Shown here piece by piece: positions 4,480 to 62,543 of a DNA stretch of 64,000 nt. Position numbers and translations under genes: made by a program. Position 1 is the first letter of the stretch. Each line of letters opens with the position of its first letter. Source of the stretch: Rhabditophanes sp. KR3021 (Eukaryota > Nematoda > Chromadorea > Rhabditida > Alloionematidae). The notes beneath the pieces were generated by a model. It did not search any database. It worked only from the letters and a program-made list of their open reading frames with translations, and was not told the DNA's origin. The stretch lies in contig CAUJLY010000003.1 of assembly GCA_963281155.1 (NCBI GenBank), positions 4,898,001 through 4,962,000 on the forward strand, written 5' to 3'.

Positions 4480-6544
4480 TTAGTTGCCTTTAACCAACTT
4501 GATAAGACCTTCTTTGTAGGCTCCGCTACAATCTCCGGCAATAGTCTTCTCCAAAGATCTTCCGTAACGTTTTTCAAATTCTTGCCTGATATCAGCCAAA
4601 TCGATTTCAGAACGAGTCACGACCTGAAATTAGATTAATATTAAAAGTTATTGGATGGTTTTAATTTACAAGTCGTATTAAATCGGTGTCTCTTGTGCCC
4701 ATGCCTTTCATACTATTTTCAAGTAATTCGGCAAAGTATAATGCTTTGTTTTCCACAACTTTTACGATAGCCATTAGTGTGTCTCTGATATCTCCGGAGA
4801 ACTCAGAGGCAATTGCTTTGTCTACACCATGCCCAGCAACTTTCTTATACTCTTGAAGCACTAGGAGAAGTTGGGGCAAGCTTTGCGAACAAAAAACTTT
4901 GAGGAACTCTGATTCGTCGGTGCCAAGACGTTTTTCTCCAGCCTTGTACAAGTTTCTGGCATCTTGATTAGCTTTTAATGGATCCGTAAATCCAGATTCG
5001 TCTCTATTCCCCGCGCAAAGAGCGACTAATATCCTTTGGAACCAAGAACTTGTATCTCCAATCAAATCCCTTTCCAATTCAGTCTTGTACAAGTTCTTGT
5101 AAACCATTTTCAATTCAGCAATTTGTGCACGCGTACGTGTGACCATGCATTCAATTAATACATGCTCCCGAGTACCAAAACCTCTGACAGCTCTCTTAAT
5201 TTGTTCAGCATCAAAGACAGCCGGTGGAGTCATAAGAGCAATAATGAGATCCTCGAAGTCGCCGTGGAGTTCACTCTTAAGGTCAGAAATAAGATCTTTT
5301 CCATACATTCCTTTAAACGCTCTTGCGATCTCTTGGCGTTGGTAATTAGTTCTTGCGCACAAAACCTCAATCACCTTAGTATTGTTACATCCAAATCCTT
5401 TCATGGCTTTTCTCAAAGCTTCCGCATCAGTATTGGCATTAAAGTTAGCACTCATGCGAACAGAAGGATTGCTATAATTCATGATTGAAGCTGAAATTAA
5501 ACAAAAATTAATTCAATATAAATTGACATCGCATATATACTTTAATAAACAATCACACTAACGATGACGAACTGATTTGACAATACATGACGCATAAAAT
5601 GGTTAATGACTAACTAAAGGGAAAAAATGTGATGCATTATTTCTAAAAACCACACCAATGGAGCGAATAAATTTTATATACAATATATAATATTCAGTCA
5701 ATTTTTACTTACGCTGCGCATAGTAATTATTTTGAGCAAAAGTTTGTTGTTGATCAACATTTGAATGGGGAGGTTGATAGTAAGGGTTTTGAGGAGGCTG
5801 GCTATTACAGTTGGGTGGAACATAGGATGTGTTTTGAAATGATTCAGAGGGGTTAGATTTTAGGGGATTATAAGAGTTACTAGGAAGATTTTTTTCTGCA
5901 CAAGGAAATTGCTGATTAGAAGTATTAGATAACGCTTCACTATTAAAGCCGATACCTAGCGACTTAGGAAGGACAGGAAAAGATAATAAAATATGCTCAC
6001 TCTTTTGGTATTGATCCGGGCGATTCGTTTGTTGTGCTGCAGGCTGGTTAGTATAAGAGGCTTGAGGGTAATTTAGCTGATTTCCAATTGGAGGTGGTGG
6101 ATATGATGGCTGATTAAAAGCTGACCCATATCCAACTGATGGTTGGGGAGAATACGTTGGTTGTTGATTGAATCCTTGTGGCAGGTATCCAGGATTAGCA
6201 GATGATTGTGGTGGGTATCCAGGATTAGCAGATGGCTGTGAAGGATAACCTGGTTGATTGTATCCTTGTGAAGGATATCTTGGTTGATTGTATCCTTGTG
6301 AAGGATATCCTGGTTGATTAAATCCTTGTGAAGGGCCTGTTTGGGTAAAGCCTATTGGATAAACAGGAGTAGAAGGTGCTTGATTCGACCCATATGGTTG
6401 AGAAGGATATCCTGTGTTAGGTTGTCTATTAGAACCATATGCTTGAGGAATAGAGTTGAAGCTTTGGGCAGAAGAAGCGTATTCGTCATTTTGATAACCG
6501 CTATGTTGACCGCCATGTTGGCCGCCATTGTTATGATAAGACAT
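4480..6544 (-). CDS. Annexin with long Pro/Gly/Tyr/Gln-rich N-terminus (A7/A11 type)
   Basis: Calcium-dependent phospholipid-binding protein. Exons 6544-5713, 5490-4670 and 4623-4480 join in phase to 598 aa. Exon 1 encodes a 277-aa low-complexity head starting MSYHNNGGQHGG with repeated GYPSQGYNQP-like units, the arrangement of annexins A7 and A11, whose heads bind ALG-2-like partners or phase-separate. Exons 2-3 encode four annexin repeats. Type-II calcium loops are visible as GFGTRE (repeat 2), LGTDES (repeat 3) and KGMGTRD (repeat 4). Repeat 1 has GFGCNN, so the usual threonine is replaced by cysteine and that site may be weak. Exon 2 carries an ATG (5482) only 8 nt after its AG acceptor, and from it a conventional 320-aa short annexin could be made. 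Start chosen as the first ATG of the A7-like head. Confidence 0.93.
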
Positions 6545-16067: not shown

Positions 16068-17908
16068 TTATGAATATGGGAACGTTTGTGAATAATCTGG
16101 CGTAAGGGTTGATTGGTACGATGGGGACGTGTATTGAGGAACAGGGTAATGAAAAGGTGCTTGATTGTATGGTGGAACGGGATTGCTCGTTAATTCATAA
16201 TTATTCATCGGATACATACTATTTGGCCAATAATTGTATGGCGTAATAGCACTATTTTCAGGATACGCGTGGTTTTCATTCCAATTAACATTTTCACATT
16301 GTGCATACCAGGGGGAGGGTAAATTATTATTCGCATTCCCAAATACACTTTCATTTTCATAGTATGGCCCATGTAATTCGGTTCCTACATAACTTTCTGG
16401 ACAAGTCAGATTCTGTAAGTAAAGAATTTAATAACATATTTAATTCACAAACCAAAAATGTTTTAAAAATATAAAAAGTTAATTCGGGATTGCCTGTGAT
16501 GTACAGTAATGACAAACTTTGGTTTCACATGTTGCACAATAACAATAGTTAATTCTCACTTATTTAATGTCAAGTGTTTGAGTCCTTATTTAAAGTAACT
16601 TCTGGTGAATGTAATTTCATCCTTAACCCCTTCCTGGTAGTTAAGTATGTGTGTAATATCATGTCTGTTAAACTTAATACCCTCTTAACAACATAATCAT
16701 AACTACTAAGCATTGTGTTGACCTTTCTTAAGCAAAACACAATCATTCATATCATTACTGTGGCTTTGTTAGTCAACTAAATAAATCACATAAGCTACCA
16801 CTTTAAAATCATCTCTTTCTATTAAAATAAACATTGTGACAATTTGCCATTTAAATTTAGTTTTTAGTTGTCATTTAAGTTAGAGTGAATAATTGGCATT
16901 TGTAAAAGATACTCTATTGTGTTTCCAAAAGATTCCGACAAATGAAAAATGGATACTTATACTGATAATGTGCAATTAATGTAAAGTAATGTAAAGTAAT
17001 ATTCACATAATGTGCAGCTAATACAAATTTGTTTTAAACTAACCGTTGAAGAATGTCTGCCTGAAGTTGTAGAATGAGTATTAAAGCTTTTTTCAATTTT
17101 ATCATCATTTAATTCACTGTCTTGCTTACGATTCAGTAAAAGATGATTATTGTTGGTGCCAATCATAGGCTTACCGCCTCGATTAGTTCTTGGTCGGCGA
17201 CGGTACATTCCAGCATCATAGAGAAAATCACTCGTTTCAGCAATTGTCCATTGATGGCCCTTGCCAACTTTTCCACCTTCAGATTTAGGCAGTTTTATGA
17301 AGCATTCATTTAAACTCAAGTTGTGACGAATACTGTTTTTCCATCCATTGTAATCTCCGCGGAAAAAAGCTGAATGTTGAAATAAGTATTTGTAAATTTC
17401 GGCAAGTGTGGCCTTTTTTGTTGGGTGGGAAGTTATAGCCATGGCAATTAAAGTTATGTACGAAACTGGAGGTTTCTCCAACCTTTTTGTTCTACTCTTT
17501 TTTGAAGTTGTCCCTTCTAAGTGACATTCAAAACTAGATGCCATTCTAAGGGAATCACATTTTGGCAAATGGTTATTAGATAAAGATAATTCCATCGAAG
17601 AAAGTGGATTAATAGAGTTTGTGGAATGGGTAGGAGAAAGTTCATTGTTAGGGGAAATTTCGCAATTTTCAATATGTAAATAAGGAGAATTATAATTGGG
17701 GCTCGTTTGCTGCGAAGTTACATTTGGAGAAATGGAATCTTCATCTGATTTACTAAAATTGAACGATAATAAATAAATATTTATGTTTTAAAGAAATAAA
17801 CATCTTTTGATTACACAATACGATCAACAGTTTATTTATTTGTCTATATACAAATTATACATGCAACAATAGTTTACAAATTTTAAATACTTACCTGATA
17901 GGAAACAT
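16068..17908 (-). CDS. Forkhead transcription factor, FoxF-like
   Basis: DNA-binding regulator of mesoderm-type development if the FoxF call holds (let-381 is the C. elegans FoxF gene). Exons 17908-17895 (14 nt), 17752-17044 and 16412-16068 join in phase to 355 aa. The N-terminal ~110 residues are Ser/Pro/Asn rich. The forkhead domain runs from [17 protein letters not shown] through [20 protein letters not shown] (recognition helix) to [20 protein letters not shown]. The [10 protein letters not shown] that follows and the preceding DAGMY resemble FoxF EEGSFRRRPRG more than FoxA, FoxC or FoxQ. The C-terminal exon is rich in Tyr, Asn and Pro and ends [17 protein letters not shown], a plausible activation region. 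Intron 2 (17043-16413) is long and AT-rich. The subfamily call is moderate; the forkhead assignment is certain. Confidence 0.9.
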
Positions 17909-18797: not shown

Positions 18798-19836
18798 TTA
18801 AAAAGGTATTGTTTGGTGTCTGTTGATAAAATCATTCACATGGAATTTCTCTCTTATTAGAGGGCGGACGTCTTCATTTCTCATTACAAGATTTTCTAAG
18901 AATGGAATTAAATTGAGCAACTCCTCATCATCTCGGCATTGATACCAACTTTTTATAGGAATTCCATTGTCGACTTGATAAGCAAAAGATAATATTGAAT
19001 TGTCAACAATAACAACATGCGCCAAATCTCGCCCCAATATGCTAAGGTCTTTGATGTAAAAATTGTCGACACCTACACAATGCTCTCTAAAAAGTCTATG
19101 CTTGATAAATTTCCTTTTTGGATCCAGGATATCACATAACTTTCTGGCGTAGAAGTTTTTGCCTGCGGTAAAAATGATCAGCTCAAACAATTTGCTCATC
19201 CTGTCTATAAAATAATGAAAAAAAGGACGAACACGGACATAAACCTTGCATTCTAGTTGTTCACATTTGATTGGAAAGGCAATAGTTGCATCTTCAATTT
19301 CTAATAAACTACAATGCACAAGTGTTTCATCCAAGTCTAATACTAGCGAATATTTGGGTGTAGATCGTCTTTTTAATGGCAATACCGGAATGCGATACTT
19401 TAGTTCGGTATTTACTGGTGGTGGGCTATACAATAACTTTAGTCTAAACAAGTTTGGATTAAACTAAATTTCCTTTAACTTACGCTTCAATGTCAAGAAC
19501 ATTTAAATGATTTTCAACATCCGGTACTATTTGTAGCTGATTGTTTTTTTGGTAATAAATGCGAGGGTCATCAATCTCCATGGGTTCAAACTTATTTTCA
19601 AAGTTAGTGTTAGTAGGTTTCTTTACTTCCAATATTATAGTTTCATTATTTAAAATGATTGTTTCTTCATCTAACATTAAAGATTCTTCACCTATCAGTA
19701 TAGTTTCTTCAGTTAAGATTAAACTCTGGTCTTCTAATAGTAAGGTTTCCTCATTAGCCATAATGAGTGCAACATCTTTAGGATATAAATCTTTAAAACA
19801 CTTTAAATTGGCTTCCATTTTATTTATAACTTCCAT
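18798..19836 (-). CDS. CTD small phosphatase-like protein (CTDSPL2/SCP4 type)
   Basis: HAD-superfamily Ser/Thr phosphatase that removes phosphate from RNA polymerase II tails or SMAD-like substrates. Exons 19836-19484 and 19443-18798 join through a 40-bp intron to 332 aa. The catalytic signature is YSLVLDLDETLVHCSL, containing DLDET. It is followed by YVRVRPFFHYFIDRM, ELIIFTAGKNFYARKL, and the second acidic motif HVVIVDNSILSFAYQVDNGI. These order and spacings match CTDSPL2 and Dullard-like enzymes. The N-terminal 118 residues are acidic and contain an unusual run of ETI/ESLML-type units (TEETILIGEESLMLDEETII) of no known role. Start is the ATG at 19836; an acceptor-like TATTGTAG lies 18 nt upstream, so an untranslated 5' exon or trans-splicing is possible. 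Confidence 0.9.
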
Positions 19837-22964: not shown

Positions 22965-25900
22965 TTATGTATCGCATCTTAAAGTCTTTGGAATTACCGA
23001 AAATTGTATCAAAGGAGTACTTTTATCAAGAGCTCCGCTCGTTTCAAAGCATTCCAAGGCTTGAATTGGGCGATCTTGCTCGAGTAAGATTGTTCCTAAG
23101 ACATTCCAGTGTTCGTGATTCAATGGATCAATGTTTATTACATCTCGAAGTAATTTTTCTGTCATTTCATAATTTCCTTGATTTTTATATATTTTTGATA
23201 AATGAAGTAAACTGGGAATATGAGTTGGTGTAATACTTAAGGCCGCTAAATAATAGCTCTTTGCTTCACTGATTAATTTTCCTTCAATTTCTAGATCTCC
23301 ACACTCATCTGCTCTTTTGTTTAATAAACGGCCACGTAAAAATAATGCTTGATGGGAGTTTGGAAATATTGAACAGGCTTCTTCAACGCAAGAAGTCACT
23401 TCTCTAATTTTGTTTAAATCTATAAATAACTCCGCTAATTCAACCCACAAATTCGCTTGTAATCGAAAAGCTGTCATCAAGTCAACACTTTTTGTTGACA
23501 TAGATTTTAAGCCAAGTGATTCAGAAATAGTTGAAGCCATTGCTCCTAATTCGCTAGAACATGTTTGATGCACTCCTGGCATTACTGATTGTCGTTCTAG
23601 TACTTCTGAATATGCACCTAAAGAAACGTGATTAATATTACAAAATCACATAATATGATGGATCTTTCTGATCATGTTTAATAATATAACATTTTTTATG
23701 TTTTGAAAAGGCAAGAATTGATAAAGCGTTTTTTAACATTCAAATTTACTTCACTCATAAAGGTGTTTTATATCTCATTTAAGTTGATATTTTGATTATG
23801 AAGCGACAATTAGCACATGGTGGAAGTCAAGAGGAACGCGGCTTATGGAGATTTTAGACAATAAAAAACAAATTGTAGCTTTCTATTTTGACGAGTTGAC
23901 TGCAAATGAAGCTTTAGCATTTGAATACACTATCACAATGGACCTTCAAAATATTTTGAGCAACATTGATGCATCGGGACAATTCAATGGTGTTATGTTC
24001 AAGAAACACCCAGAAACTATTAGAAGAATCTGTGAGATGGTCATAGGCAAAATCTATTTCTCTTTAAAGGATACTTCTCAATAGTATTCTGTCTAATTTA
24101 AATTATTGTGTCTTCCATTTAATAAACGTTTTTGATATTGATCAGCTGTTATTTTGTATACACTTTTTGATTGTTTTTTACTTACCTAAATTTAACGAAA
24201 CGTGCGATTGGTGTGAAATTATTCCAATGGAGTTGGCAAGAAGTGGAGTGAATGAATACCCATTATCTCTTTGGTTGCCTTTTACCACGGATTCTGTCCC
24301 CCCTGCATTACTTACAGAATATACACTTTTCTTAGTTGAGAAGTTTTCCTCTCCAACAGGATTGTATGGGCCATATGAATTGAATAGTGGTTTTTGAAGA
24401 TTCTTCCAAAATTGCAAGAGGTTTTTTGAAGTTCCCATTGCTTCTTGGACACGCTCGCATTTCATTTCCAACTTAAGTCTCAGTACTAGTAATCCGTAGT
24501 TTGAAGGAAATTCTTCCAACGCCTCAGTAATAACGGAAAGAGCGCCATTGAAATCTTTATTAGCAGTCAACAATAAAGCTAGCAACATAATGTTCCATGG
24601 GTTTTCTGCATTTAATTCTAGTGCTTGGTTGCATCGCTTTTGGGCCATTTCCAAATCTCTGGCATTTGCATAATTTAGAGCAGAGAGGAAGTATGCCATA
24701 TCGTCTTTAGGGTCAAGATCAATTGATCTATCAAACATGGCAATACTCTTGGCTAATACTTTTTTTCTTTCATCAAAAGACATAATGGTTTGTAATTTGC
24801 TGCTGTACGAAATGGCATACACCAAACTAGCTCTGGCTTCCATCCACGTTCCACGGGCAGCCTCAAAAGCTTTGTTAGATGCATAAATTGCATGGTCAAC
24901 TTCCATAGATGAATCCAATTCTAGTTTGGCTAAAAATAAATATTTCATCATCGAAGTTTGATTGTTCTTATTATTTTCATCCGATTCCAAGGTATCAATT
25001 AATTGCCGAAGTACTTTAGTAGCTCTCATATAACTTCCATTCGACATTAGAGTTAAAACGAATTGAAGCCAAATATGAGAATCATTGTTGGCAAACTTCA
25101 TAGCTCTTTCAAAAACCTTGCACAAAACTCCATATTGACCTAAGCTCGACAAAATAAGTGTAATGAATGAATGTACAACTGTAACATTTTTAAGACTGCT
25201 TTCTCTGCGAGCAGCACAATCCTCGGCTCTACTTAACACAACGTCCTTAGAAGCTAATGCTTCGGCGATAAATAAAAGTAACAGGATTTCTTCCGTGTTA
25301 TTATTTGGGCAAAAGTGTAAGTGATTTGGTCCCGAATAAAAGACAAGACTTTGACTTTTTTCATCCATTGTCTTTGAATCCCCATAAGTATTTCTCTCGA
25401 ATCTGTGCTTAACAAGAATTTCAGCTAAAAATCTACTGAACTTTTTCATTATCTTCTCGCCAATATACTTATCACCCATTCGTGTCAAAATTTTTCTGTA
25501 CCACTCGATTCCTTCAATATCCCACCTAGATGCATTGTCTTTGCCTTTCATGGCAAATTGCGGCAATTTTTGAAGGACTGATTCCATAATTCCTCCAATT
25601 ATATTGTCCTTTCTTTTGCTTAGATCGGTTGGGATAGAAGTTCGAGTGTGAGAGAATAGACTTTTCTCTAATTCAGTGACATAACTGATTCCAAGTTCCG
25701 CTGCGAATTTGAAACAATCAAAACACTTCGTCCTAGTCGCTTCGTCAATTTTCCCATGTTCTTTTAGACACATCTTTTCCAGTGTCAATCCTTTGACTGA
25801 ATAACCCTCTGCCACCAACTTTAATACTCTTAGTGTTTCGAATTTGGTTGACAAACTATCGGAATGACTTTTTTCAATGTCAGATAAAGCTTGAGGGTAC

Positions 25901-26232
25901 ATCTCGGAAATGTAATGTAATTTGGATAGTAACAAATACGTTTCCATCTTCATACATTCATCTCCTTTTTCGTTTAACTTTTTCAGAACTTTTAAAAGAA
26001 GTGTCTCACAATCTTTTAGATGCTTGTAATGATCACCAGCTGGGACGATTTTTGAATGCTTGCCAATATATTGTTCTAGTTGAACCTCGGCCTGATAAAA
26101 ATCCAAGTCTGATGTTGCTGATACTTTTGTTCTGATACCAGGTAACAAGGCTTCCACTCTGTTCCAATTGCACTCATTCCGGCAATTGCCTATTTCAGTT
26201 TCATACCGACTTCCTTTCCATTTTGAAGTCAT
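22965..26232 (-). CDS. TTC7: Tetratricopeptide repeat protein 7 (PI4KA complex)
   Basis: TTC7 scaffolds EFR3 and FAM126 to bring PI4-kinase alpha to the plasma membrane. Exons 26232-24186 and 23617-22965 join in phase to 899 aa, close to the human 843-858. The N-terminus GSRYETEIGNCRNECNWNRV matches the GSRLETEIERCRSECQWERI opening of TTC7. Many TPR-like helices follow, including SIDLDPKDDMAYFLSALNYA and AMAQKRCNQALELNAENPW-like repeats, and the family ending PLIQFSVIPKTL resembles PVLPFSIIPREL. The start ATG is immediately preceded by TTTTAG, a trans-splice-like acceptor with no 5' leader. The Tim8 gene ends only 143 bp upstream on the same strand, so the pair looks like an operon with TTC7 downstream. 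A small opposite-strand ORF lies in the 568-bp intron. Confidence 0.93.
23845..24084 (+). CDS. Possible small protein nested in the TTC7 intron, opposite strand
   Basis: A 79-codon open frame, MEILDNKKQIVAFYFDELTA... to ...KIYFSLKDTSQ, lies wholly within the TTC7 intron on the plus strand. Composition is protein-like (amphipathic, charged, no low complexity): LAFEYTITMDLQNILSNID and KKHPETIRRICEMVIGKIYF look like two helices around a turn. An AATAAA signal follows at about 24119, before the end of the intron. Upstream in the same frame the reading stays open for about 18 codons without an ATG, so a spliced 5' exon is possible. No family was recognised. It could be a nested gene or a retroposed fragment. 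Confidence 0.4.
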   Translation: MEILDNKKQIVAFYFDELTANEALAFEYTITMDLQNILSNIDASGQFNGVMFKKHPETIRRICEMVIGKIYFSLKDTSQ

Positions 26233-37739: not shown

Positions 37740-40658
37740 CTAGTGACCATTTATTGAAATTTTTTGAATATCTTGTTCCAAGGATTCGTTAAAATTTGAT
37801 TTGGTAGCAAAGGAGTCAGTATCTGAAGTGTTGTTCATTTTGCTCTTCAATCGGTTGATTTCTTCCTCTTTTCTTTGGATTTCGAGGACAGCATCATTTA
37901 ATGCCTTACTTTGGACTTCAAAAGCTTGATATCCTGCAGTCAATTGTTGGTCCAATTGTTGGACTTGATAATTTAATTGCTGAACAACGGTATCATGAGG
38001 ATTAGGAAGCTGGCTTAATTGGTATGTTTGCCATTGGTCGGACCATTGCTTGTATTTCGCAACTTCCGACTGCCATAAACTAACATTTGTTGACAAAATC
38101 TCAACCTGTGATTTATAGGCATCCTTCTCACTCGCTTCAACTTCTAAAATTTCTTTAGTTTTCTTGAGCTCGGTGATTTCTTTAACAGATGTCTCTTCCA
38201 GATTGATGTACTTTTTAGTAATTTCTTCTAGTTTTGCTTTGTGATCGAGAAGCTCTACTTTTAGATTACCAATTTCTTCATCTTGCTTACGAATTAACTC
38301 AATATATCCGTAAACAGCTCCCTGCTGGGCACTATTAGTGACATCATAATTCTCATTGCCAGCTTTAAGTAGTTTCAAGAAGGACATTTCGTTCATTCTG
38401 TAGATCTTGCAGAATTGGTAATCCAAAAAAGGACTACTATCGCTCTTAGGATTGAATTGGGCTTTATTGGCTGATCTAAGGTAATACTCAGAATGAGTCA
38501 AGTTTTCAAGACTTTCAGCAACAGCAGATTTTCCAAGTCTAGAAAGTGAATTAGTTTGATAACTTTATTTTTAAATTTAAGTATTTATTAGTCACAGAAG
38601 CTCTGTATAAACATAACGGTAACACCTCATACATTTGAAACTTTGATTCTGGACATTCTTCTTTGACGAGGTTACCAAAATGAACTCGAAGCTAAACAAA
38701 GAGGTAGTTGATCTCACCATTGGCGAGTTTATGGTTGACCCTATGTTTTTGGGTGTTACAGTTTATAAATAATACCGTTAATAGTCTGCCAAATTATAAT
38801 ATATCACTCCCGTTATACTTTAATTAGAATAAAACAAACCTTCTGTTAATTAATTCAAATATTTTCTTCTTTTCGTCTTCTGTAGCTGAATTGGCGTGGG
38901 CGACCATCATAACGTATCCCAGCATGCCACGGACAATGACATCTTCTGTCTCACTATCTCCTACATCAGTATCAACTAAAAATAATTAGCTTAAGTAATT
39001 GGATATTCTTTCACTTACTAAATTCAGAAGTGATATATTGGACGAAATTTGGATCCTTCATGAAAATATTCAAAGCTTCTGGACAATCAGTAATCCAAAC
39101 TGAAATAAGCATCAGAAATCCAACCTTAGCTTGATTCTTTCTTTTTGCTTGAGAAATCAACAAATTACAAACAAATTCTAGTAGAGAAATTTTGCCATCC
39201 TTGTGTGGTTGCTTAATATTAAGCATAACGATCTTAACATCCTCATTTGCCATAATAAGATGCATAAGGCACACCGACCCAGCCCAAACTTGAAATGGTT
39301 CAGTACTATTTAAACATCTAATAATACTGTTACCGACGCCAGCTATTTCAGGAGTATTAGCAGCTCTTTGGGGATCAAGTGTTTTGACCAAATTATTACT
39401 TCCTATTTCATTGTCGTAAGTATAACAGAAAAATGCGTACAAAGCAGCGCATCTTAATTTGAACGGTTGTTTGTCAGTTGTCAAAGCATCCATTAAAACT
39501 GCAAGAGAAGAAGTATCAACTTCATCCTGGTTAACATGGGTGTTTATGAAAAAATCTTGGTTTGTAAAATTTCCTTTGATAAGCTCGCCAACAGTAACAA
39601 TCGTCTGAACAACTGTTTCAAGTCCGGCTCCCAATTCAGAAAAAATTACTCGACTCAAAGTTTGTAACATTCCATTTTGATAAAATATCTTTTGACAGCT
39701 GTTGTAATTTTCGTATAAATTTTCAGAAGAGACTAAGGCTCTAACTACTTCTAAACTAAAGAAAATATTACTAATCCTTTGCTTTGGCCATTCGAAATTT
39801 GGGTTGTAAGTTTCCTCCAACTCATCCTCGGGGAAAAATAGCCTAGTAATTACATTATTGAGCAAATTCGGCAAGTTAACGTCAGCTCTAAAGTAGCGCT
39901 GATTCCCAGTATTTCTTTTTAATAAATTTAAAATCACAAATAAACAATCTTCTATAACAATACTCTCGGACATTTCTTCAATTATGATTCCAAATAAAAT
40001 TTGGAATGAGTTTTCGTAAACAAGTAATTGTTGTACGTTGCCGTTTCCTTTACTTAATTCACTCAACATCAAAACCACGCTATTTCTGATAACTTCTCTT
40101 TGGTCTTGAAGTAAATCAACAATCTTTCCAATTCCATTGTGGTGGTTAATGATAGCTGACTGAACCTCACTTGCACGGTAACGTAAAAGAGCGATCAACA
40201 ATTGAACTAACGATTTTCTAACCATAAAATCAAAGGACTCCGTTGTATTCATGATTGCCTCCATCAAGGCTGGTTTTTTAACAAATAACTCGGCCAATTG
40301 ATCTCCTAAATCATCTTCCTTTGGAGAAATTGAATCTTCTACAGTCAAGACAGACTCCATAATGTCAAAAACAATATAAATTAATTCACAACTCTCTTGA
40401 TCTTGTACCAAAACATCCATAAAGCACTTTAAACCAATTGAACCAACATGCGATCTCATTGTCTGAAATGGCATTATTTAAAAAACGAAAATAGTAACTT
40501 ACAGGAGCCATATCTTTTATGGTTAACAAAGCATCTCTTCGATCTTCATAAATAGTAGACGATTCTACACGATCAAATAACTTCTCAACTAAAGAGACGT
40601 CATCGTCATCTTCAATAGCTTCTTTGTTTCCAGTAAAGAAGTTCTGGAAATAGGACAT
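37740..40658 (-). CDS. USO1: General vesicular transport factor p115 (Uso1)
   Basis: Golgi tethering factor that captures COPI/COPII vesicles with GM130 and giantin. Exons 40658-40503, 40462-39019, 38975-38840 and 38538-37740 join in phase to 844 aa (human 962). The N-terminus MSYFQNFFTG...VEKLFDRVESSTIYEDRRDA matches the p115 opening. About 600 residues of armadillo-like helices follow (RNSVVLMLSELSKGNGNVQQ, FKLRCAALYAFFCYTYDN). The block RLGKSAVAESLENLTHSEYY corresponds to RIGKENFIEKLGFISKHELY at the head-tail junction. The rest is a heptad-rich coiled coil (EEIGNLKVELLDHKAKLEEI), shorter than in vertebrates and ending DIQKISINGH without the usual acidic tail. Intron 3 (38839-38539) contains an open but out-of-phase segment that I exclude. 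Start chosen at the family MSYFQ methionine. Confidence 0.93.
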
Positions 40659-46710: not shown

Positions 46711-48337
46711 TGAAACACGTCCTACAAATTAGTATCTTCTTGAAATATTTGATTAAAATTTATTTCCTAATAAACACAAAATTGAATCGTCGAGGGCGAC
46801 GTAAATACTTTGGAAAATACACACAAAAATTAAAATCAAATAATGACTCGATTCAATTTAATTCAATTCCAGCTTGGAAAAAGTATGCCCGATTAGTTTT
46901 ACCCCATATAGGACTTTGTTTGTTGGTAGGTTTATAGGATTGATAATTGTAATTTTAGAAATTGTTTAGAGTTTATTATATATATCAGCTGGGGCTTTCA
47001 TATTTCTTCATGTCGAGAGACCAAATGAACTCGAAGTCCGCTCTTCAAGCATACGTCAGATTGAATCGGAAAAACAAAAAATGTTAAAGCATATTTGGCA
47101 GTTGCTCAATGAGGCTACTGTCTCTAGAGGTATTCATTAAAATAACAAGTAATTCATCATCTTTTAAAATTTTATTGTAGAACAAATTGAGAAAGACGCA
47201 CTAGGACACATTGACGACATTACTAGACTTTTATTCGAGGCATTTGATACACATTATGTTACAGCTAAGCATTTAAATCAGGAACTTGATTCGAGCGAAG
47301 ATGAATTTTCATGGACATTTACTACTGCGGCATTTTATTGTGCGTATTTATTTCAATACACCCATAAACATTTGTTTCTTTTCAGGCGCAACCCTCTTAA
47401 TGACAATAGGTTACGGGAATCTAGTATGTACCACTCAATTGGGTCGTCTTTTTTGTAAGTTACATTATCTGCTTTTACTAACTTTTGTATTTGGTTTCAG
47501 GCATTTTTTACGCTTTATTGGGTGTGCCTCTGATTTTGATAACCGTTGCTGATATTGGAAAGTTTTTGTCTGAAAACATCGTTCGTCTCTACACAGCTTA
47601 TAGTAGGACCAAAAAAAAGTTTAACAAACGATATAACGAAGTTGTCAATAATAATAACAATCTGACAGCTTCCTTAAATGACATTTGTACAGAAGATTTA
47701 GATGAGGAAGCCGCCAAAGAAAAAGATCAATTAGTTCAAGTTGGATTGGAAAATTATGTGGCTATTCCAATTTCCCTTATTATTTTCATTTTATTAGGGT
47801 ACATGACGATTGGGGCCTTTTTATTAGCCGAATGGGAGAACTGGAATGTCTACGAGGGTTTCTACTTTTCCTTCATTACTATGACCACCGTATGTGTGAC
47901 TTAACAATTTAAAATTGTAATGACTTCTTTAGGTTGGATTTGGAGATTACTATCCCATAAATGAGAAGTATTTCTTCTTGGATTTAGCCTACATAATCAT
48001 AGGATTAGCTATCACAACTATGTGCATTGATTTAGTTGGCATCCAGTACATTCGAAAAATCCATTACTTTGGACGAGCCATTAAAGATGCCAGATTTGCC
48101 TTAGTTAATGTAGGAGGTAAAATGGTGCATGTTCCGGATTTGATGAAATACGCCGTCGTACTTCAGCACAAATATGGTCAGAAAAAACAGAATGGGGATG
48201 AGATTAAGGGAGCTTTCGCACCTAAGGACTTGCCATTGATTAGATATATAGATTATGGTGCAATGGCCTCATTAGACTCAATATCTAGCTTATGGAGTTT
48301 GGTCTTTGGAAAAAGCCGTCAACCCAGCATGGTTTAA
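46711..48337 (+). CDS. Two-pore-domain potassium channel, TWK type (5' end unresolved)
   Basis: Leak potassium channel subunit. Exons ending 46925, then 46970-47129, 47181-47339, 47386-47454, 47501-47889 and 47933-48337 join in phase. The K2P plan is complete: TM1 region RLVLPHIGLCLL then LLYISAGAFIFLHVERP, the first pore with TIGYGN, TM2 FYALLGVPLILITVADIGKF (typical of TWK channels), TM3 YVAIPISLIIFILLGYMTIG, the second pore TVGFGD, and TM4 LDLAYIIIGLAITTMCIDLV followed by IQYIRKIHYFGR. The cytoplasmic tail ends GKSRQPSMV. There is no ATG in frame in the first exon, which opens upstream as far as 46711 after an AG. The true start is therefore in an upstream exon, perhaps beyond the transposon remnant. 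From LNRRGRRKYFG onward coding character is clear. Confidence 0.88.
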
Positions 48338-52374: not shown

Positions 52375-55300
52375 TTAAGAATGATGTCCAAAGTGATCTG
52401 ATTGCTGTTCTTCTGTTAGCGTGACTGTGTAGTAGTTTGGATTATCAGGTATTTGTTTGATATCAATTAAGAAGGTATCTTGATTACAATAATGCTTTAC
52501 CATATCATCATCCATTTTGACTCTAACTCCTTTGTAGCAATGTCTATATAGTTGTGTGATATTGTCGTGATTTATTCTGTATTTTTCCCCGACAGCTCTT
52601 GCTAAACCAACATATCCAGGTGGTACGATATGTAGTGCTGTATAATCGGCTTCGTCTATTTTACGAACATATACCATTACTGAAAAAACATCTATAATGT
52701 TGATGTAATGTTGTAACGACTTTTCAGGGTATTTTATATCAAAATCGTTATTATTTTTGGAAATTATAGTAATGGATGTTTTTGCATCAACAAGATGTAA
52801 TTATCGAAATAATTGCAAAAATGATGGTAAAAATAATAGTAAAAGGTAATAGTTCCAAATAATGATATTTTTTGACATCATTATGTGGCGTTTTGAAATA
52901 TTTAAAATTAATTGTCCTTGAGACACATTTAAAATATTGAACATTTAATTGGCAATTGAACATACCTCGATCAGCTGTTCGCGGCTTTTTCGCGATCGGT
53001 TCCATGTCGGAGAGTCCATCAAAGGTAATTGAACTGGTATCTAGGTAATTGTTTTCGAATTCGTCTGAGGCGACAAACAGAGCCGCTTGCTTTTCCAAGT
53101 CACTCATGTGATAGAATTCACTTCTCTCACATGGCTCATGGAACTCGCCGTCCGACTTTTTCCTCCCTAGAATACCGGAAAAAAATACGGTAAATAAATG
53201 GTATAACCTCTTTGAAATTTAAAATGGAAAGTAGGGAAAACATAAACATAAATATAAAAGTGAACAAAATTAAACAAAGTTGAGCAAAAATGAACAAAGT
53301 TAAACAAAATTGAATAAAATGGACAGAAATAAAACGCAAAATTAGTAAACATAAAGGATAGATTGGCAAAAACAAACCAACCTTGCATTCGACGCTTCTC
53401 ATCTCGCCGTGTTTCATGTAACATTTTTCTGTTAGCTCCCTAAACAAGTAAAAGCCATGTTAGTCGATGTTTACTGATGGAAGTTATAATGCAAATAAAG
53501 GACACAACAGGACAACCAATGTTTTGTTTGCAAAAAACGAGTATTTAATAGACGATCTGATCAAGTTTTGTCAAGGAGTAGACGTAAGAGGTCAAACAAG
53601 CTCCAAACAAGCTCAATCAAATTTCTCGTAATCATTAATAAACTCGATTACACGTTTTGTAAAGCTACTAGCACATTTAGGTCAAAGAGCAAACAGTATA
53701 TACTAGTTTTAAAGAGGCTAGGGAGCCTCTGGTGCGCAAAAAAGCTGCAAGACGGCAACTGTTTTCCGGTTATACGTGATTTTAGGTGTAAAGTTCAAAG
53801 TTGACTATGTTAATTTATACACAAGTAAGTTAATGGAACGACTATTTTACATTTCATGTTATTAATGGACTTAATTATCTTTTTAATTTAGACGACGACT
53901 TAATTATCCTAATCATTTTATCCAAATGTCTTAACTACCTGTAATTTTGCGCTTTTGCGCTCTTTTATCCTCGTCACGAAGTTTTCTTTCTGCTCCCTAA
54001 ACCAAAAATAATATTAAATTTGAATTATCATTTTGATCAAAATTAAGACCGACACTACTAGGCTCATTTTGGGATATAATTGTACTAAACACTTTTCTGA
54101 AAGTTTATAAATACTTTTGGTTAATTTTTGCCTAAATGTAATTATTCGTGAAACTTGTCCTGTTCGTCTTAATTTTTTAAAAGCAAGAAAAGAAATTTGC
54201 CTTATCGCAAAAGACTTTGATTTGACAGAAACCCCTGTGGAAGGGTAACTTGCTATCATCGCCTTCATCGTATGTATCCACTTGTACGTGCAGAGGTAAT
54301 CCTTTGACTCCTTTTTGATTTGAGAAATCAGTTGAGAGACATTGAACGGCGATACTAATCTTCACTGAACCGTCAGCCGGATTCCAATAAAATTGAACGG
54401 CGTTGTGCGAAATTTCTTCAATCTGTCCGTTAACGCCAGACGAATTTTTGGAATCAACTTCCATTATTCTTTGTTTGGACGAGTGTTGACGACCATGCCA
54501 GAATTGCCAGGTTTTTAGTTCATCTTCGTGTGATTTGTCTTCTCTAAACACAACCATCAGAATACTCTAAAATTGGGGTTATTAGATGTTAGAGATTGTT
54601 GTATGAATAGAAAAAGAAAATGACATTCGCCAACTTACCCTAACCGTCGCACTTTTAAGAGGTTTGCATGAATCTGGAATGTAATCTAAAGAAATTGTAT
54701 AAAATTGGCCTTTGTTAACATAGGTCATGCGATCATCTTCCTTTCTAATGGATGTACTAATGGGAGCCTCCAACACATACTGAAAACCTAGGGAGTTGTG
54801 TAATTTAGGAATATTAATGGGTGATTCTCTGTGACTCATCATTCTTTCATTTCTGTCCATATTTTGAATTAACTCTTGAGATTGAGGATTTTGTTGAATG
54901 ACTTGCTGAAGCTGTTGTTGGCTCATGTAGAAATCATCTTTGGTAGGTAATTGAAAATTTAACTCAGCACCGATGCCAGAATCAACAGGACTGGGCATTT
55001 CTTGTTTAATTATACGTTCATGTTGATTGAGATCCTGGGATTGGTGATGATATTGAATTGTGGGTCGTTGTTGATAAATATTATTGGAATTTTCAAGTAC
55101 ATACTGATTTGTCAGGGCATTCTGCCAGTCTTGATTACTTCGAATTTGAGTGTTGACAACAGATGTAGCTGGGGAAGGAATAAAACCATTATAGTACAAG
55201 GAATTGGCTGTATGTCCACTGGTTGGCTGAAGAACAGTATGTTGTTGGTTGGACAAATTAGGGATGTAGTCATAATTTCTACCATAAATATTATTCATCT

Positions 55301-55469
55301 GGTAGTATTGATCAATGGGTTGCATTTTAGGAATATCATGAATGTTTGAATTTGTAATTGAATTTAAATCTAATGCGTCACCTTTCGTCATAAAATCTAT
55401 TTGCTGTCTTGGGCCTGGAGGGGCAGTTTTAATGACTGATGATGTATCAAGTTGAAATTGAGAAGACAT
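52375..55469 (-). CDS. grh: Grainyhead CP2-family transcription factor with alternative exons
   Basis: Epidermal barrier and cuticle regulator, pioneer DNA-binding protein. Isoform A uses exons 55469-54639, 54566-54201, 53996-53939, 53166-52966 and 52679-52375, in phase, 586 aa. The first ~240 residues are Gln/Asn/Ser-rich activation sequence. The CP2 DNA-binding domain follows: [73 protein letters not shown], and [18 protein letters not shown]. The last exon, [20 protein letters not shown] through [20 protein letters not shown], is the C-terminal ubiquitin-like/dimerisation domain. The donor after FCDK is GCAAAT, a GC-AG intron with no GT alternative nearby. Exon 53439-53382 can replace exon 53996-53939 in the same phase. 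The start at 55469 (MSSQFQLD) is the first ATG after an upstream stop; a longer spliced 5' end is possible. Confidence 0.93.
53225..53335. repeat. Degenerate A-rich tandem motif in grh intron
   Basis: About eight loose copies of an 11-base AACAAAGTTGA-like unit lie between alternative exon B and the next constitutive exon. On the transcribed strand this is T-rich and could influence exon choice; that role is inference. Confidence 0.55.
53382..53439 (-). other. grh alternative exon B (58 nt)
   Basis: Encodes [19 protein letters not shown] plus one base. It has the same length, entry phase and exit phase as exon A, a TTTAG acceptor, a GTTGGT donor and clear sequence similarity (GA.RK...E..R..KR). 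It is best read as the mutually exclusive partner of exon A: including both or neither would shift the downstream frame. Confidence 0.85.
53939..53996 (-). other. grh alternative exon A (58 nt)
   Basis: Encodes [19 protein letters not shown] plus one base, the canonical sequence that follows the CP2 domain in Grainyhead proteins. Flanked by TTTAG acceptor and GTAGTT donor. Enters in phase 0 and leaves in phase 1. Confidence 0.9.
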
Positions 55470-61081: not shown

Positions 61082-62543
61082 TTACAATTCTTCTACATGA
61101 CCCCATTTGTTAAGCAATTCTTTGTAGACGCTTGCTGTTAGGAAACGGGGATAGGAATCTCTTGCCATCAAAGTAAAGATTTGAGATTGAGCCTCGTCAA
61201 AAGTATTAGAAGTTGGATGGTGCATGTTCGAATTTATGATTTCGCGAACCCGTGAATCTAAGGAAACTTCTTTAGGCGACAAGATGGAAATAAAATCTTC
61301 ATATATGATTCTGGCTTTTTCTTCTATCTTTTCTGTGTTTTTTTCCTTCTTTAATTCCTCGCATGCTTGGTAGAAGAGAATATTTTCATCCGAAAATTCA
61401 GATTTTAAAAAGTCGGCAAACATCTTTTGACCAACTAAAATGATGTTCAAAAAGATGATTAAGATAATTGCAACCTTCGGACTTACCTTTGCTTTTGATA
61501 ACCCTATCAAAAGATATAGCCCAGGAAGACACTTCATCGTAAGATGTTCTAAAAAATTAATTAATTCAATTTCACATTTTTTTAAATTTCTTAAGTCAAA
61601 TCACTACACTCATTTATTCACATGCCAACATGTTTAATTTACTTTATGATTGACGTCACGATCATTTTTATCAGCATCAGCTGTTTTTAATCTTAATAAT
61701 TCTTTAGGCGATATAATACTTTGTCATTACTTTTTTCATAATGTAGTTACATTTTTTGGTGTTTCTAATTATATCTAATGTGTTAAGAATATCTATAAAT
61801 CTGGTTGTATAAAGCAATTTCATATGGTTAGTATTATTGTTAATATTATGAATTACGACGTATACGCTTAAAGATTCCAGTTTATGTGAGTAATGAAACG
61901 CATTTTTAAAGGATACAATTTATAAATAAAAAATAATAGTTGGAATAAAAAACTTACTTGTCATCGATGTCCATAGAACTATTTCGATTTCGATTGCCTT
62001 CTTTTGTACCTGTTGTCAACCTAAAACAAAAAACTATCAAAATATTCATAATATTTCCTCTATATTTATTTAGATTAAAATTAACTTTTTATGCACTCCA
62101 AAAATTGTTAATTCTTTGTGTTTCAATTGTTTATGCTTAATTCCTTATTTTAATATTCAATGTTTAATTGTTTATGCTTAATACTTAGTGTGCCAGAAAT
62201 TGTTTTACTACTAGCAATATTTCCGAGAGCTTAAGACATAGCAACGAATAAATTTTAATGGAAAATAGGGTCATAAAGGACATATATCTATAAAAATATT
62301 ACCACCAATCATGATTTTTATATTAGCTTCATTGAATTTTCGAAATGTCATGGCATAAAAGAGATACACATTAACAGGCATCAAAAAAGTCACTTCCATC
62401 CCACACGAAAAATTGACGATGCATTTTATAATGAACTCTTAATGAAATGTTTTTTGCAAAAAAGATACAATTTAGATGGATAAAACTTACCCATGACTAC
62501 TTTCTATGGAGGTGCAATTGCAAGTAAAAAACTTAAACAGCAT
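61082..62543 (-). CDS. Small regulator of G-protein signalling (RGS, R4-like)
   Basis: GTPase-activating protein for Galpha(i/o/q). Exons 62543-62491, 62020-61958, 61548-61487 and 61434-61082 join in phase to 176 aa. It opens MLFKFFTCNCTSIES; the cysteines in this hydrophobic head are likely palmitoylation sites for membrane attachment, as in small R4 RGS proteins. The RGS box covers residues ~45-170: VSSWAISFDRVIKSKVGQKM, FADFLKSEFSDENILFYQAC, EVSLDSRVREIINSN and IFTLMARDSYPRFLTASVY. Conserved contact residues EN (in SDENILF) and the Asn-like position in REIINSN are visible. Exon 1 ends two bases into a codon and the small exon 2 encodes a Asn/Arg-rich linker. No further domain follows. Confidence 0.92.

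Follow-up and report, generated by a model that had tools for sequence, protein, structure and literature searches.

Two homologous exons within the DNA-binding domain of a nematode Grainyhead gene as a probable mutually exclusive pair

The analysed window was a stretch of 64,000 nucleotides (nt) from Rhabditophanes sp. KR3021 (assembly GCA_963281155.1, contig CAUJLY010000003.1, positions 4,898,001 to 4,962,000). On its minus strand lies a grainyhead gene in which two neighbouring 58-nt exons, designated here A and B, are situated between shared coding exons. The best protein match of the gene was P0001 (P numbers refer to the rows of our protein searches), a public model of a CP2 protein from the same Rhabditophanes sp. 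KR3021. The Pfam domains CP2 and GRHL1_C of P0001 both scored above the cut-offs, which places it in the Grainyhead (GRH) family. The last 604 residues of P0001 were identical, letter for letter, to the window model with A joined to B via an AG inside B; the start of P0001 lies 51 residues further upstream than the ATG used here. One CP2 locus was found in the genome of the window (44.8-Mb, six-contig assembly). A second grh gene in this genome was considered and rejected: among the best candidates scored, the CP2 family, a tardigrade Grainyhead and both 46-amino-acid (aa) exon queries led to this locus only. The features of the gene, all on the minus strand, are the following:

54639..55469, minus strand: upstream coding section of the gene, between the ATG used here and the first donor; the DNA-binding domain begins here.
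54201..54566, minus strand: shared exon of the DNA-binding domain, ending in QIKVFCDK in phase 0 (Pfam CP2 in P0001).
54199..54200, minus strand: GC (not GT) donor of the shared exon, AAG/GCAAAT; the junction CDK/GAERK was set by homology to PDB 5mpf.
53939..53996, minus strand: exon A, 58 nt, GAERKLRDEDKRAQKRKIT plus one base; phase 0 in, phase 1 out.
53440..53938, minus strand: intron between exons A and B, 499 nt.
53382..53439, minus strand: exon B, 58 nt, GANRKMLHETRRDEKRRMQ plus one base; phase 0 in, phase 1 out.
53435..53437, minus strand: cryptic acceptor in exon B, AG at 53437-53436 with the first kept base at 53435; P0001 joins A and B in frame here.
53256..53335, minus strand: T-rich tandem repeat with a 10/20/30-nt period, located in the intron that follows exon B; a candidate splicing element.
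52966..53166, minus strand: shared downstream exon with phase 1 entry (GRKKSDGEFHEP...).
52375..52679, minus strand: last coding exon with the C-terminal GRHL1_C domain and the stop (Pfam GRHL1_C in P0001).

The preliminary description of the locus had reported two same-strand 58-nt exons, entered in phase 0 and left in phase 1, with alternative 19-residue segments; the coordinates and translations matched ours letter for letter. Both exons have intact AG acceptors and GT donors. Model transcripts containing A only or B only gave predicted proteins of 586 aa each, counted from the ATG used here. The statement that inclusion of both exons or of neither would break the frame was correct with the normal acceptor of B, but not with the AG inside B. 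In the former case, the joining of A to B gives GGG AGC TAA, an immediate stop, and a product of 420 aa, and the skipping of both exons adds 20 foreign residues before a stop (419 aa). In contrast, with the AG four bases inside B the frame stays open and codes for 604 aa.

A and B agree in 8 of 19 residues at the protein level and in 30 of 58 nt at the DNA level. When B was shuffled 200,000 times, its score against A was equalled in 2 cases (p 1e-5). When all 465 58-nt windows of the AG..GT/GC type from both strands of the window were compared with A, B scored 42 and the next best 9; A alone scored above B. A and B are thus neighbouring homologous exons of equal length and phase, as is characteristic of mutually exclusive tandem-duplicated exons. 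The difference in charge pointed out earlier was confirmed for its distribution, but the net charge is +4 in both segments.

The pair had initially been located just after the DNA-binding domain, directly beside it. This placement had to be corrected, as exons A and B fall inside the domain: Pfam CP2 covered 17 of the 19 segment residues in P0019 and P0022, ending at residues 386 and 385, respectively, and the segment aligned without gaps with the GRHL1 domain of the crystal structure, starting at chain position 177. The segment also holds the residue changed in the mutant entry PDB 5mpi, where the Arg of GAER, found at chain position 180, is replaced by Gln. The GRHL1 crystal construct presumably starts at residue 248, so that chain position 180 corresponds to Arg427 and the Arg three positions further on to Arg430. 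In the GRHL1 structure study of Ming et al. (2018), two conserved arginines reportedly select the target and R427Q reportedly abolishes binding; we take these two arginines to be 427 and 430. Position 427 (GRHL1 numbering) is Arg in both exons of this gene and in 38/38 B segments of the proteins compared below. At positions 430 and 431, Arg and Asp were present in 134/134 A segments, and all 38 B segments contained Leu430, His431, Asp436 and Glu437. A recent study of GRHL2 attributed contacts to positions 3 and 6 of AACCGGTT (PMC13105062). The exon swap thus alters the DNA-reading segment itself, and a change in motif or in affinity would be expected from it.

The human GRHL2 variant c.1258-1G>A was reported with a frameshift at p.Gly420 (PMC7471608). 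Codon 420 of GRHL2 starts at base 1258, which puts an intron directly before Gly420. If Gly420 is the Gly of GAERK, as we assume, the 5' boundary of exon A would be ancestral and B would have arisen by tandem duplication in the nematode lineage.

To follow the two segments in other species, 166 distinct proteins were compared, originating from three protein searches (best 120 of 1990, 34 of 34 and best 120 of 217 matches). Of these, 65 rows were assigned to nematodes by label or, in the case of the unlabelled P0002, P0013, P0027 and P0029, by their place in the tree among named nematodes. The other 101 rows were arthropods, tardigrades and some unlabelled contigs. Genome searches covered the window's own genome, and the comparison of nematodes was made on the listed proteins. 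Most rows are gene predictions and many are near-copies (e.g. 15 Trichinella rows), so the row counts do not represent independent events. In addition, C. elegans isoforms of one gene merge in one 90% cluster (P0022, four members).

The preliminary description had proposed a search of related nematodes for the second exon. The B segment, GANRK[ML]LHExRRDE[KR]R[RK], was found in 38 of the 65 nematode Grainyhead rows and in 17 named genera, among the matches listed: Trichinella, Trichuris, Romanomermis, Syphacia, Rhabditophanes, Steinernema, Panagrolaimus, Acrobeloides, Meloidogyne, Pristionchus, Caenorhabditis, Diploscapter, Mesorhabditis, Haemonchus, Trichostrongylus, Nippostrongylus and Ancylostoma. 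These genera span the nematode clades I, III, IV and V. In the 101 non-nematode or unlabelled rows listed, the B segment was absent and all carried A. The nematode rows, nearly all of them gene models, divided into 26 with A only, 31 with B only, 7 with both and 1 with neither (P0055). Within the 17-residue core, 14-17 residues of B were identical to Rhabditophanes in 37 other rows, and 9-17 residues of A in 32 rows, indicating that both A and B are under constraint at the protein level. A conserved GC donor was also considered in the odd models P0055, P0062 and P0072 and was rejected, as neither a GC nor a GT start would account for the residues that follow CDK.

In some nematodes the two segments were found in separate proteins. 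The Acrobeloides nanus proteins P0012 (A) and P0024 (B) differed only around the segment and by one 12-residue insert; they look like two isoforms of apparently one gene. Transcript-sized contigs with single long frames carried A only (P0002, P0013, P0027) or B only (P0029, a contig of 2604 bases placed beside Meloidogyne and Heterodera in the tree); these contigs resemble spliced messages. In both Steinernema carpocapsae and S. glaseri there are two distinct grh proteins, of which one contains GAERKLRDEYRR (A) and the other GANRKMLHENRRDEKRR (B). The A-type and B-type proteins of S. carpocapsae shared 42% identity over 482 aligned columns. In a tree calculated without the segment, the five Steinernema rows formed one group with a support of 92/97, which is below the mark for a firm branch of the tool. 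The simplest story is that the two-exon gene was duplicated in Steinernema and one exon was then kept per copy, although either copy may still contain a partner exon that is not annotated. The A segment of P0122 and P0123 belongs to a second, fast-evolving grh protein of Steinernema (branch length 1.27), next to the B-type one.

The splice sites and introns were inspected for features by which one exon might be chosen. Both the donor of A (GTAGTT) and that of B (GTTGGT) deviate from GTAAGT, and the shared exon upstream has a GC donor. Introns of the GC-AG type are uncommon and have been linked to regulated splicing in C. elegans. By eye, none of the donors GCAAAT, GTAGTT, GTTGGT and GTATGT resembled the U12 type, so the U12-type sites on one exon that exclusion by U2/U12 incompatibility would require were not found. 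With 499 nt, the A-B intron is not of the very short kind, which makes steric exclusion unlikely. The intron after B contains 55% T and showed the strongest excess of motifs: TTTGTT occurred 5 times (0.32 expected), TGTTT[AG] 4 times (0.35) and TTTTT 5 times (1.35). A mild excess was detected in the A-B intron for TAAC (6 vs 2.36 expected), TTGTG (2 vs 0.73) and TGTTT[AG] (4 vs 0.82). GTGTG was absent from the three introns. Inverted repeats were also found; one of 28 nt with 75% complementarity lies in the intron before exon A (54039-54066 / 54149-54176). Weak sites together with a T-rich element beside one exon would be compatible with a regulated choice by RNA-binding proteins. In the case of C. 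elegans unc-32, exon choice by such proteins has been shown (PMC3585155).

Judged from the gene anatomy and from the conservation of both segments in nematodes, which support the mutually exclusive pair originally proposed, the locus probably represents a nematode-wide tandem-duplicated exon pair that provides one Grainyhead gene with two DNA-recognition variants. Several observations weigh against this interpretation. The RNA folding of the stretch from A to B gave no signal (z -0.62; 4 of 20 shuffles folded as well), and the unusually stable intron structure expected of Dscam-type RNA pairing was not found. The FOX-1 motif GCATG was absent from the three introns. Both segments were carried by 7 of the 65 nematode rows, P0001 of Rhabditophanes sp. 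KR3021 among them. The clade I rows were 18/18 B with none carrying A, so these protein rows do not display the pair in clade I; this could be due to the loss of A or to a choice of annotation.

The rows with both segments correspond to a different explanation, according to which A and B are not exclusive but are spliced together in frame via the internal AG of B, giving the 604-aa form. P0001 is such a joined model over 604 residues, and six further nematode rows contain both segments. However, the linkers between A and B vary (KIT-ANRK, KVQGTGANRK, and in P0004, P0021 and P0048 long inserts that resemble introns), as is expected of gene predictors forcing a frame. Moreover, B occurs without A in 31 rows and A without B in 26, and the internal AG lies directly after the normal acceptor. 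Joint inclusion is a real alternative but a quite improbable one, and the P0001 model is taken to be the product of a gene predictor that merged two exclusive exons to keep the frame open. It is slightly less probable still that the pair acts chiefly as an on/off switch, in which both-included or both-skipped RNAs with stops would lower the protein level. Both forms do stop early, but the strict protein-level conservation of B and the B-only proteins would then be unexplained. The possibility of exon B as a chance frame or a dead exon is negligible, as its frame is open, its sites are intact and 14-17 of the 17 core residues are kept in the 37 other rows; the conservation of B across nematode rows in effect rules it out.

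Among the alternatives the least improbable, although unlikely, is that isoform B is a natural inhibitor, impaired in DNA binding, which dimerises with A via the C-terminal domain that both have in common. B does not have Arg430, while the shared last exon keeps GRHL1_C. On the other hand, the strictly conserved B has retained Arg427 in all 38 segments, and the B-only clade I rows are hard to square with a pure inhibitor. The Steinernema B-type protein P0051 had both Pfam domains in its search row as well, which also speaks against this role.

Under the preferred interpretation as an exclusive pair, A or B alone would be joined between the shared exons in each cell. Splicing regulators would choose via the weak sites, i.e. 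the upstream GC donor, the off-consensus donors of A and B, and the T-rich stretch after B. RNAs with both exons or with neither would carry early stops and be degraded. Isoform A is predicted to bind the classical AACCGGTT-type site. Isoform B, with Arg427 kept but with Leu in place of Arg430 and His in place of Asp431, would be expected to have an altered sequence preference or affinity, and it would dimerise through the same C-terminal domain as A. A wider proposal is made tentatively and with slightly less than even confidence: that the swap of the recognition segment in the p53-like DNA-binding domain yields two DNA-target programmes from one nematode Grainyhead gene, that this switch dates from the stem of the phylum, that it was split into two genes in Steinernema and that B may have replaced A entirely in clade I.

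In the rest of the window, a forkhead-domain gene (Pfam PF00250) was found at 16957-17787 on the minus strand. Two adjacent open frames at 47482-48337 on the plus strand resemble, by eye, a two-pore potassium channel (VGFGDYYP); the second of these frames, searched by itself, had no Pfam match. The ordinary neighbours, all on the minus strand, are an annexin (4661-5512), a NIF-type phosphatase (18798-19463), a TTC7-like gene (24178-26232), a Uso1/p115-like gene (39011-40477) and an RGS-domain gene (61082-61600).

Mutually exclusive tandem exons are of a known kind. In C. elegans, unc-32 (exons 4a-c and 7a-b) and egl-15 likewise contain tandem alternative exons that are used one at a time, and the choice is made by tissue-specific RNA-binding proteins (PMC3585155). 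However, unc-32 and egl-15 encode a proton-pump subunit and a receptor, respectively, while the grainyhead pair lies inside the DNA-binding domain of a transcription factor. With FOXP1 exon 18/18b and the alternative exons of MEF2, splicing swaps a segment in or next to the DNA-binding domain and changes the DNA preference or activity; however, these are other folds from vertebrate or insect genes, none of them Grainyhead. Within the family, tissue-specific splicing of Drosophila grainyhead reportedly adds an exon elsewhere and does not swap the DNA-reading segment (Uv et al. in 1997 are said to have described it), and the Drosophila biarmipes row showed A only, among the matches listed. In TFCP2/LSF (PDB 8y7v), the same place in the CP2 fold has the equivalent of Arg427 kept and Lys at position 430. 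TFCP2/LSF is a separate subfamily, and exon B is not LSF-like beyond the shared CP2 positions, its protein having GRHL1_C.

The preliminary description knew of no described counterpart in Grainyhead genes. This was in correlation with the literature, but not with the databases, where predicted proteins of the 17 genera contain B. No paper describing the exon pair in a grainyhead gene was found, with papers judged mostly by title and subscription papers (e.g. a 2017 review of Grainyhead splicing) outside the scope, nor was a paper found that treats both grh-1 and mutually exclusive exons. The gene is unmentioned in the main text of a survey on tandemly duplicated exons, one section of which deals with nematodes (PMC9741552). 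Three splice variants are listed for C. elegans grh-1 (PMC7471608), and the isoform cloned in a lifespan study was grh-1b (PMC8748497). Exon B may therefore already sit in the database annotation without discussion.

What is unusual here is that the DNA-reading segment of a conserved developmental regulator would be rewritten. GRH-1 is a factor of the moulting clock in C. elegans (PMC12673066) and affects its lifespan (PMC8748497). If two versions of the reading segment exist, binding maps, rescue complementary DNAs and motif models in which GRH-1 is handled as a single protein would mix its activities or miss a part of them. If the interpretation is true, the locus would be a clear case of a splicing-based swap of the recognition segment that was later divided between two genes, and the swap could direct a regulator of moulting and skin to separate sets of targets depending on the tissue or the phase of the moult.
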